A model generated the notes under the pieces. The model had not been told where the DNA came from. It searched no databases and worked only from the letters and a program-made list of their open reading frames with translations. A stretch of DNA of 37,504 nucleotides from Syntrophorhabdaceae bacterium (GTDB lineage: Bacteria > Desulfobacterota > Syntrophorhabdia > Syntrophorhabdales > Syntrophorhabdaceae). A program made the translations under genes and the position numbers. Every line of letters begins with the position of its first letter. Position 1 is the first letter of the stretch. Location of the stretch: the NCBI GenBank assembly GCA_028713955.1, contig JAQTNJ010000008.1:1-37504 (forward strand), in the 5' to 3' direction. Shown piece by piece: positions 6,123 through 35,078 of the stretch.

Positions 6123-6197
<75 letters not shown>

Positions 6198-6329: not shown

Positions 6330-6404
6330 GGCGGCATCGCCAAGTGGTAAGGCAACGGTCTGCAAAACCGTTATTCTCCGGTTCAAATCCGGATGCCGCC
6401 TCCA
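6330..6404 (+). tRNA. tRNA-Cys (GCA)
   Basis: The acceptor arm GGCGGCA (6330-6336) pairs with TGCCGCC (6394-6400). The anticodon stem ACGGT/ACCGT encloses loop CTGCAAA with anticodon GCA. The T arm is CCGGTTCAAATCCGG, and U plus an encoded CCA end at 6404. Length 75 nt. Confidence 0.97.
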
Positions 6405-32057: not shown

Positions 32058-32618
32058 ATGTCTGAGATAAAAAGCGCCATTGAACTGGCAATGGAAAAGA
32101 CAAAAGGCCTGGGGATGGACGAAGAAGAACGCGAATTGTTCGCGCGAAAAGACGTCGAAAACAAGGTCAGGGTAATATTGAGACGGTACCAGGAAGGCAT
32201 GATCGACGATTATGGTGTGAAAAAAGAACTGAATAATATTGAGGGCGATGAAAACCTCAAATCAAAGTCGCTGCTCGATGCCTTGATCGAGGGATTTGAC
32301 TTAACAGGTGATAATAAAAAGATCTTTGCCCTTTTTCATCTCACGGGCAGTGGTCTTGATGAGCGCCTGGGGTTCGAATTAGAGGCTTTACAGAAAAATT
32401 TTACCAAAGAAATGGAAAAGCGGAAGATGATAATCAGCGCCCGCATAGAGGATAAGCTTAAGGCAAGGGGGATAACCGGCAACGGTATTGAGCCAAACAC
32501 GCAGACATGGGATGAATGGAAAGAGACCCTTGATGAGGTTGCCCACGCCTTCAACGAGCGCCTTGAGGAATGGAAGAAGAGACTTGCAGATGCGGTGAAT
32601 AAAGGCAGTGAAAAGTGA
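32058..32618 (+). CDS. Conserved-looking helical protein of unknown function
   Basis: A 186-residue soluble protein, rich in charged residues and almost wholly helical by inspection. The C-terminal half (about 100-186) looks like a coiled coil with heptad-like Leu/Ile spacing (EALQKNFTKEMEKRKMI, FNERLEEWKKRLADAV). The N-terminal half holds ELFARKDVENKVRVILRRYQ, which recalls small helical bundles. No signal peptide and no catalytic motif. I do not recognise a named family. No strong ribosome-binding site precedes the ATG. It lies between two degenerate inverted repeats and shares no clear operon with its neighbours. Confidence 0.65.
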   Translation: MSEIKSAIELAMEKTKGLGMDEEERELFARKDVENKVRVILRRYQEGMIDDYGVKKELNNIEGDENLKSKSLLDALIEGFDLTGDNKKIFALFHLTGSGLDERLGFELEALQKNFTKEMEKRKMIISARIEDKLKARGITGNGIEPNTQTWDEWKETLDEVAHAFNERLEEWKKRLADAVNKGSEK

Positions 32619-32709
32619 ACGGTAAAAGAGGCAGTCGATAGTGAATAGCATATAGTGAACTGCAAAAGAAAAAATGCTTGATGCTCGATGCTGGTTTAGC
32701 CGTCAGCGA

Positions 32710-32781
32710 CCAGCTTTCAGCCATCAGCGTAAAGCCTTTTTTGTTTTAGCTGACCACTGTATGCTGACAGCTGATAGCTGG
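32710..32781. repeat. Degenerate intergenic inverted repeat
   Basis: Arms of 25 nt at 32710-32734 (ccagctttcagccatcag...) and 32757-32781 match at 20 of 25 positions after reverse-complementing, around a T-rich 22-nt loop. The nearby stretch 32619-32700 holds related words (gcagtcgatagtgaatagc, gatgctcgatgctgg). It ends 11 bases before the ribosome-binding site of the next gene. Confidence 0.65.
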
Positions 32782-32806
32782 TTTAAGGGACGGAGAGTTA
32801 AATACC

Positions 32807-33607
32807 ATTAATCTCAAGACCATATACGACAGGCACAAAGAAGACCTCGCCGGTAATGACATAAACGACCCCGTAGTATTTATTCACAGATACCGGGAAA
32901 ACCGCGACAGGGAGATTGCCGGTTTTCTTGCCTCCCAGTTTGCCTACGGGAAGATAGAGACGTTCAGGACATTCCTCGAAAAACTTTTCGGGCTTATGAG
33001 AGCAAGCCCATACAATTTTATCAGGAAGGGGGATTTTTCTAAAGCCCGGGGCCTTTATTACAGGTTCCAGAAAGACAAAGACATCGTCCTCCTGCTTCGG
33101 ACCTTGCAGAGGATCATCAATGAGTTCGGTGGTATCGGTCCTATGCTGCAAAACTATTACCATGGCGATATCAGGGAAGCGCTCTGGGCGATGAGGAGGC
33201 ATCTTTTCCGGGACAGCAACGAGCTTACATTCTTTTTCCCTAAACCGTCCCCCACGAATCCCCTGAAACGCTGGAGCCTCTATCTCCGGTGGATGGTAAG
33301 AAAAGACGCGATCGATATCGGGATATGGGACTTTATCGACAGGCGCGGCCTCATTATGCCCCTCGACACCCATATCTTCAAAATAGGCAGGTGCCAGGGG
33401 TGGACCGCCGCAAGGACACATTCTCACAAGGCAGCCCGCGAGATCACGGAGGCATTAAAGATATTCTCGCCCGACGACCCTTTGAAGTACGATCTTTTCC
33501 TCTGCCACACAATCGGCATCGGCGCGGGATGCACCGGCAAAAGAACATCTGCCTGTAAAGACAGATGCCTGCTTTACGAGATCACAAGGGCAGTCGATAG
33601 TCGATAG
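32807..33607 (+). CDS. TIGR02757-family protein with probable ATT start
   Basis: About 266 residues. The first in-frame ATG is at 32996, but the frame is open and conserved-looking well before it: NDPVVFIHRYRENRDREIAG, then FLASQFAYGKIETF, match the start of the TIGR02757 family (helix-hairpin-helix-like proteins of unknown function, usually about 250 residues). The in-frame stop is at 32765, and between it and 32996 no ATG, GTG or TTG occurs. GGAGAG at 32792-32797 stands 9 bases before ATT 32807, which I take as the start; CTG 32771 is less likely. The C-terminus has CTGKRTSACKDRC, three cysteines typical of the family. The stop codon TAG lies within a CGATAGT repeat, so the last residues are repeat-derived. 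Confidence 0.8.
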   Translation: MNLKTIYDRHKEDLAGNDINDPVVFIHRYRENRDREIAGFLASQFAYGKIETFRTFLEKLFGLMRASPYNFIRKGDFSKARGLYYRFQKDKDIVLLLRTLQRIINEFGGIGPMLQNYYHGDIREALWAMRRHLFRDSNELTFFFPKPSPTNPLKRWSLYLRWMVRKDAIDIGIWDFIDRRGLIMPLDTHIFKIGRCQGWTAARTHSHKAAREITEALKIFSPDDPLKYDLFLCHTIGIGAGCTGKRTSACKDRCLLYEITRAVDSR

Positions 33608-33667
33608 TATATCGTATATAGTGGACTGCAAAGGCAGCCTCCAATGCCTTTTGCGGTCTACGATATA
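33608..33667. repeat. Degenerate intergenic hairpin
   Basis: An outer 9-bp stem (tatatcgta at 33608-33616, tacgatata at 33659-33667) encloses an inner stem of gactgcaaaggca (33624-33636) with its near-perfect complement at 33645-33658. The rest of the gap, to 33818, holds similar words (gatatacgatatgc near 33730, a repeated cgccgaacg at about 33690-33715) and no gene. GAGGA lies 8 bases before the rimO start. Confidence 0.65.
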
Positions 33668-33818
33668 TGATTTCTATGAATCGCATTTCTCGCCGAACGC
33701 ATCACGCCGAACGTTCTCTTGGGAACCTCGATATACGATATGCTGAGTCTCCTCGCCTCATTTGCTTTGGCGGCCTGTTTTGTTGTAGATTAGGGCACAT
33801 GATCGTGAGGATTTACAA

Positions 33819-35078
33819 ATGAAATTTAAGATCATCAGCCTCGGCTGCCCTAAAAATCTTGTTGAATCAGAATATATAAGCCACAGGCTGGAGGAAGAGG
33901 GTCATATCCTCTCCGATGACTGCGACACCGTTATAATAAATACCTGCGCCTTTATCGCTGACGCTGCAAAAGAATCGGTGGAGACTATCCTTGAAGAGGC
34001 GGGGCGAGGAAACAGAAAGGTGATCGTGACCGGTTGTCTTGTCGAGCGGTATGGGGAGAAGTTGAAGGAGCTTCTGCCTGAGGTTGACCTCTTCATTGGA
34101 CGTAACTGGTATGACGCGATTGACATGCTTGCCGACAGAAAAGGTTTCTTTATCAGGGAAGGCTCGTTCGCGGAGACATTTCCGAGGAAGGTACTGACAA
34201 ATAAACCCACGGCCTATCTCAAGATCCAGGAAGGCTGCGACAACCGGTGCAGCTATTGCACTGTCCCTGCTATCCGGGGAGGCCTCAGAAGTAGAACCAT
34301 AGAGGACATTAAAGGGGAATTCGAGTGGCTCGTAGACAATGGTTACCGGGAGATAAACATCATAGGCCAGGATATCACCTCTTACGGAAAGCACGGTGGG
34401 ACCGACCTGAAACAATTACTTCAAAATCTCCTCGTGATTGAAGGCGATTATTTCATGCGGCTTCTCTACATGCACCCGAAAGGGATCGGCGATGAGCTGA
34501 TAGATTTGATCGCACGCTCTGATAGGATAATCCCTTACATGGATATCCCGATCCAGCATTCTGAGGACAGGATCCTCAAGCTCATGGGGAGGGGCTATGG
34601 GAAAGACGATCTCGATGCATTGTTTGTAAAGATTCGAAAAGAGATACCCGATGTTGTGCTGCGGACAACGGTGATTGTCGGTTTCCCCGGCGAGACCGGG
34701 GACGAGTTTGAGAATCTCATGGACTTTGTCAGACGACAGGAGTTCGATATGCTCGGGGCCTTCATGTATTCCAGGGAAGAGGGCACGGCTGCGTATCGCC
34801 TCCGGGGACACATCAAGAAGGGCATAAAACAATCCCGCTACAACGCTGTCATGGAACTGCAGAAAACGATATCGCAAAAGCGCTTAAAGAGGCTTGAAGG
34901 AAAAACCATGAAGGTGATCGTTGAAGGTAAAGAAGAGGCTTCAATGGCTGGACGACTCATCACCCAGGCACCGGATATAGACGGCATCGCCTTTATCAGG
35001 GGCGACTGTGCCATCGGCGAGATACTGGACGGGAAAATAGTGAAAACCCTCGATTATGATGTTATAGTAGAAATATAA
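33819..35078 (+). CDS. rimO: Ribosomal protein uS12 methylthiotransferase
   Basis: A 419-residue radical-SAM enzyme that adds a methylthio group to the conserved Asp of ribosomal protein S12. The N-terminal UPF0004 domain shows SLGCPKNLVESE (Cys10), INTCAFI and VTGCLVERY, the three ligands of the auxiliary cluster. The radical-SAM motif is EGCDNRCSYCTVPAIRG, and HPKGIGDELIDL, MDIPIQHSEDRILKLMGRGY and RTTVIVGFPGET follow. A TRAM domain closes the protein (about 350-419). KNLVESE and the length mark it as RimO rather than MiaB. lysS follows 95 bp downstream on the same strand. Confidence 0.96.
   Translation: MKFKIISLGCPKNLVESEYISHRLEEEGHILSDDCDTVIINTCAFIADAAKESVETILEEAGRGNRKVIVTGCLVERYGEKLKELLPEVDLFIGRNWYDAIDMLADRKGFFIREGSFAETFPRKVLTNKPTAYLKIQEGCDNRCSYCTVPAIRGGLRSRTIEDIKGEFEWLVDNGYREINIIGQDITSYGKHGGTDLKQLLQNLLVIEGDYFMRLLYMHPKGIGDELIDLIARSDRIIPYMDIPIQHSEDRILKLMGRGYGKDDLDALFVKIRKEIPDVVLRTTVIVGFPGETGDEFENLMDFVRRQEFDMLGAFMYSREEGTAAYRLRGHIKKGIKQSRYNAVMELQKTISQKRLKRLEGKTMKVIVEGKEEASMAGRLITQAPDIDGIAFIRGDCAIGEILDGKIVKTLDYDVIVEI

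Follow-up and report, generated by a model that had tools for sequence, protein, structure and literature searches.

A DUF2400/TIGR02757 gene for which an ATT start codon is the best-supported reading, and the recurrence of non-canonical starts in its bacterial family

The window, by which we mean the whole stretch of 37,504 nt that was analysed, contains a gene of the DUF2400/TIGR02757 family, whose features are collected in Table 1 together with those of other genes in the window. A sequence-only reading had proposed the ATT at 32807 as the start codon, on the ground that no standard start codon is found from the upstream stop to the first ATG. This description of the frame is correct: it is open from 32768 to 33604, and ATG, GTG and TTG are all absent until 32996. 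The claim that a GGAGAG motif is well spaced for this ATT likewise agrees with the gap that we measured. Two codons further upstream, CTG at 32771 and ATA at 32774, were considered as starts and rejected, because the Shine-Dalgarno (SD) sequence lies 3' of both and because one relative (L004) has a stop four codons before the ATT. RNA folding of the start region was unremarkable (z −1.49; 19 of 200 shuffled sequences were equally stable). The short repeats AGCTGATAGCTG and GCAGTCGATAGT occur in both flanking intergenic spaces (32618-32790 and 33590-33780) and are commoner in the window than in shuffled sequences; over the whole genome, no excess was found for AGCTGATAGCTG, which has 17 copies against 18 for its reversed control.

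Table 1. Features of the window that bear on the DUF2400/TIGR02757 start, and other annotated genes
Feature	Position	Strand	Remark
Two tRNA genes	6123-6194, 6330-6401		Rfam; the only Rfam matches in the window
In-frame stop TGA, upstream	32765..32767	+	Closes the frame 5' of the DUF2400 gene
Shine-Dalgarno-like GGAGAG	32792..32797	+	9 nt to the ATT at 32807
DUF2400/TIGR02757 gene	32807..33607	+	266 codons plus TAG (33605-33607)
ATT, proposed start codon	32807..32809	+	Matched by ATT or ATC in about half of the readable family starts; codon-like substitutions 3' of the codon
ATG, first canonical start codon	32996..32998	+	63 codons 3' of the ATT at 32807
Gene taken to be rimO-like	33819..35078	+	Downstream neighbour, used as a control

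The assignment to TIGR02757, which had been claimed before any database search, is borne out by the profile scores: the full frame reaches 185.6 bits against a curated cut-off of 139.2, and it scores 212.6 bits with PF09674 (DUF2400), for which the cut-off is 25. When the frame is cut at the ATG at 32996, the scores fall to 144.2 bits (TIGR02757) and 157.8 bits (PF09674), and the profile positions up to 54 and 43, respectively, are gone. Since the 203-residue form is still above the cut-offs, an annotation pipeline would name the protein and yet truncate it, at the expense of conserved positions, as had been predicted. One can therefore ask whether this internal ATG is itself the start, the 5' part being untranslated or vestigial; it is the first canonical codon of the frame, and the short form it gives passes the TIGR02757 threshold. 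Against this, the cut form loses 41 bits and the residues E36, A46, Y47 and G48, which are fully or almost fully conserved across 74 relatives, and codons 1-59 show coding-type evolution, and we regard such a start as very improbable. The further claim that about 63 family-like residues precede the ATG needs division. From residue 20-21 onward it holds; the first 20 residues lie outside the family models, because the profiles begin only at residue 20-21, and they are backed instead by conservation within the order, in whose alignment Y7 is invariant and L3 nearly invariant.

We searched 46 genomes of the order, 39 of them in the family of the window (f1), and found the gene in 42. Near relatives are available at NCBI as MAGs under names such as Syntrophorhabdus, Syntrophorhabdaceae, Deltaproteobacteria and similar. 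After leaving out two genomes in which the gene is cut by a contig end (G019 and G041), 40 readable starts remained: 35 in f1, 2 in the sister family f2 and 3 in f3. In what follows, codon 0 is the codon aligned with the ATT at 32807, and canonical codons are ATG, GTG or TTG. Within f1, codon 0 is ATT in 14 of the 35 starts and ATC in 4, that is 18/35 spread over 10 genera, and both readable starts of f2 have ATC. The recommended look at close relatives thus favours the proposed start, with ATT at the aligned codon in four of the six same-genus genomes that have the gene. A sequencing or assembly error, with ATG as the true codon, would find encouragement in the fact that three f1 genomes of another genus (g12) have ATG at exactly codon 0, an occurrence that had been named in advance as half of a refutation. 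The other half, a base-call error, is ruled out by the separately assembled ATT genomes: since ATT or ATC recurs at the same codon across relatives, in four genomes of the same genus and in nine other f1 genera, we consider the chance of an error practically negligible. The three ATG codons rather support this position as the start.

Other relatives begin in other ways. ATG stands at codon −1 in four f1 loci (L026, L027, L029 and L032), and two loci of the window's own genus (L005 and L006) have TTG at −5 and GTT or GCT at codon 0, so that a well-placed canonical start is present in 9 of the 35 f1 loci (three ATG at 0, four ATG at −1 and two TTG at −5). In f3, TTG follows immediately after the stop in all three. 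Because of these nine f1 loci and the TTG of every f3 locus, the trait is neither universal in the order nor indispensable. At the opposite extreme, 13 of the 35 f1 loci lack canonical codons entirely from the in-frame stop to a conserved DP motif, and five more (L009, L013, L015, L021 and L031) have just one or two, at most 7 codons from the DP motif; a usable canonical codon near the start is thus missing in 18/35. Eight further f1 loci have a canonical codon that could be used, either 13 to 19 codons upstream with no closer one (L008, L017, L022 and L033) or as a GTG at −4 inside an SD-like (A)GGTG (L023, L025, L030 and L035). Both f2 genes also have an upstream canonical codon that could be used (TTG at −11 and ATG at −25), and we therefore count them as compatible rather than strict cases. 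In several loci the upstream stop comes very close before the ATT, at a distance of 2 codons (L007, L009 and L010), 4 codons (L004) or 5 codons (L013), which leaves almost no alternative start there. We also examined 57 distant DUF2400 loci (L069-L125) with a crude motif rule that left the motif unplaced in some rows. A canonical codon was missing from L081 alone, and we draw no conclusion from this locus, whose match begins 111 bases from a contig end. The near-absence of the trait from the distant loci indicates that it belongs to the order and not to the whole protein family.

The position of the start can also be judged from its surroundings. Of the 18 starts that have no usable canonical codon, 15 show a 5-nt SD core upstream of codon 0 at a distance of 3-13 nt; such a core occurs in 17% of random 20-mers taken from gene interiors. 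Over f1 and f2 together, whose genomes are related, codon 0 is ATT 14 times, ATC 6 times and never ATA; among internal Ile codons of the same DUF2400 genes, ATA makes up 32%. Three genera (g1, g8 and g10) show an excess of third-position substitutions after codon 0 that is not clear in the ten codons before it, and the pattern in g4 and g5 is uninformative or mixed. With ATT or ATC at the same codon in 18/35 family starts and in 2/2 of the sister family, the ATT at 32807 is supported as by far the best reading of the start of this gene.

The same region offers one further route to initiation. A micro-ORF of 16 codons, present in the window and with the same codons readable in L003, runs from an ATG at 32761 to a TAA at 32809-32811 that lies across the ATT, and ribosomes ending there might be handed over to the DUF2400 frame. 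We find such re-initiation unlikely to a high degree, since L002, having the same ATT and SD, carries TAG in place of the micro-ORF ATG, and since the relatives with ATC do not have the TAA across the start codon.

Genus g5 deserves a separate description. Codon −1 in eight of its loci is GTA (5), ATA (2) or GTC (1), and its SD, AGGTG, suits codon −1 better than codon 0. In three of these loci (L020, L021 and L031) the start is seemingly GTA or GTC, neither being an AUH-type near-cognate, and an in-frame TGA lies four codons before codon 0, the order being TGA, TCT or TCC, CAG, GTA, GTC. We know of no described example of GTA as a natural start codon.

In a tree of the DUF2400 protein, made without the first 18 residues (44 rows), the canonical and non-canonical states need at least four changes; non-canonical starts are distributed across the whole family and canonical ones are found in small groups. 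Many inner forks of this tree are open, and the count of changes does not separate gain from loss; a non-canonical start is likely to be ancestral in the family. A rival explanation of the non-canonical starts is relaxed selection, under which a little-needed gene would have drifted to weak starts without any regulation. The start codon and its position do drift within g5 and g1, the pattern in g5, mostly GTA, ATA, ATG or GTC at −1 in place of ATT or ATC, fits drift as well as regulation, and two genomes, each at least 90% complete, are without a DUF2400 match (G002, which belongs to the same genus as the window, and G007). On the other hand the protein is well conserved, and ATT or ATC is found across many genera, with ATA absent at codon 0, though ATG is only one change away. 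We regard relaxed selection as possible, though rather unlikely.

Controls were taken from the neighbouring gene, from infC and from a wider screen. The downstream gene, presumably rimO, was found at 30 of 45 loci and starts with ATG, GTG or TTG in every one of them, at the aligned codon in 27 and with an ATG one codon upstream in 3. In a number of loci (L012, L014, L017, L020-L025, L027, L029-L032, L035 and L038) the distance from codon 0 to the rimO start is 766 to 772 nt, which makes the 3' end of the DUF2400 gene adjoin or overlap the beginning of rimO; weak translation of DUF2400 could there lower rimO through coupling. The infC gene is present in 37 of the 39 family genomes, and each of the 30 loci read (L126-L155) has AGGAGGTGA followed within a few nt by ATA as the start, with a very strong SD; in L143 and L147 a GTG within this SD is out of frame, which leaves ATA as the sole choice there. 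The screen covered about 0.39 Mb from six genomes of the same genus, with 293 conserved ORFs in 104 groups, and sought ORFs whose first canonical codon lies deep within the conserved block; 13 places were read in the DNA. Among the best 40 of the 293 rows, the only outliers were the DUF2400 gene, 64 to 75 codons deep in four genomes, and infC, at 29 and 49 codons in two, in a design that is blind to non-canonical starts shifting a gene start by only a few codons. Two rows without any canonical codon and one more were rejected as frames nested within other long frames or antisense to them. The remaining rows that were read show, by eye, a GTG, TTG or ATG close to where the start would be expected, following an upstream gene that overlaps it.

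As for the product, an AlphaFold2 model built from 74 sequences has a mean pLDDT of 93.7. Endonuclease III, MutY and OGG1 were the top structures in VIA-align, and endonuclease III (2abk) gave Z 11.7 and rmsd 3.9 over 196 aligned residues, a value to be read with the caution that the model is mostly helical and that a Z near 11 alone is no proof of fold. The top rows of Foldseek were also glycosylases, with a weak best E of 0.071, and a comparison of the sequence profile with endonuclease III was not significant (E 0.14). An overall fold test places the predicted model in the HhH-GPD superfamily. D187, in the motif PLDTH, is invariant in the 74 sequences, and it may correspond to the catalytic aspartate of endonuclease III in a motif of the D-T-H type. 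On the basis of the predicted fold and this invariant residue, the product is probably an HhH-GPD DNA-glycosylase-like protein.

Taking these lines together, we put at about 0.87 the probability of a joint reading in which the ATT at 32807 is the start and is set by GGAGAG, non-canonical starts recur over much of the order, and output is likely low, probably through IF3. The ATT, positioned by this motif, would be decoded by the normal initiator tRNA, and the first residue would be fMet; IF3 would reject the near-cognate start and so keep the protein scarce, in a manner comparable to infC, pcnB and sigR, and an excess of a glycosylase-like enzyme could harm the cell. The presence of ATT or ATC in about half of the genomes suggests that production is deliberately kept low, and translational throttling is, by analogy, the likely role of this start. 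Published observations on other bacteria provide the analogy. PMC5472188 describes repression of non-canonical starts by IF3 in E. coli and Streptomyces, and PMC13009471 shows that, in poor medium, reporters with AUU and AUA starts of Staphylococcus yield about 10% of what AUG gives; by analogy, the ATT should limit the DUF2400 protein and tie it to IF3. A broader scheme, in which IF3 fidelity control operates throughout the order, the output follows the translation machinery alongside infC, and one genus has moved to GTA, is offered here as a tentative and rather doubtful extension.

Annotation programs limited to ATG, GTG and TTG cannot find such starts, and they would shorten the protein in these genomes. 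To our knowledge, few bacterial genes retain starts beyond these three codons, and no earlier account of a non-canonical start in DUF2400/TIGR02757 or in Syntrophorhabdus was found in the open-licence literature searched. The gene has no usable canonical codon, a fitting SD and a conserved odd codon, which are the marks of near-cognate-start genes; its start joins this small known class, and the recurrence through the family exceeds the first single-gene observation. We thus have a computationally well-supported case outside infC, over at least 10 genera, in a gene without a known role in translation, and with it a testable link between IF3 and an enzyme of the DNA-repair type.

Comparison with known systems makes the likeness and its limits clear. 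The pcnB gene of E. coli also has an ATT start and is unrelated to the initiation machinery, and this start reportedly limits expression, as Binns and Masters are said to have described in 2002; its protein, however, is a different one. The infC gene, whose start codon differs between species (E. coli ATT, Streptomyces ATC, S. aureus ATA) according to PMC5472188 and PMC13009471, resembles the DUF2400 gene in that an AUH-type near-cognate start, together with an SD, is kept over a family of species. It encodes the discriminating factor itself, however, which means autoregulation, its SD is very strong, and the DUF2400 start changes more often. A conserved non-canonical start is shared also with sigR of Streptomyces, for which PMC5472188 gives GTC in 32 of 34 species and GTT in 2 and states that proper control requires the non-canonical codon; unlike our gene, sigR encodes a sigma factor, uses GTC and has IF3 control demonstrated by experiment, whereas IF3 control of the DUF2400 start is inferred by analogy. 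Finally, cvfC1 (AUU) and ccpN (AUA) of Staphylococcus have conserved AUH starts like the DUF2400 gene and differ from it by an extended SD, as PMC13009471 describes, whereas the SD of the DUF2400 gene is ordinary in most genomes.
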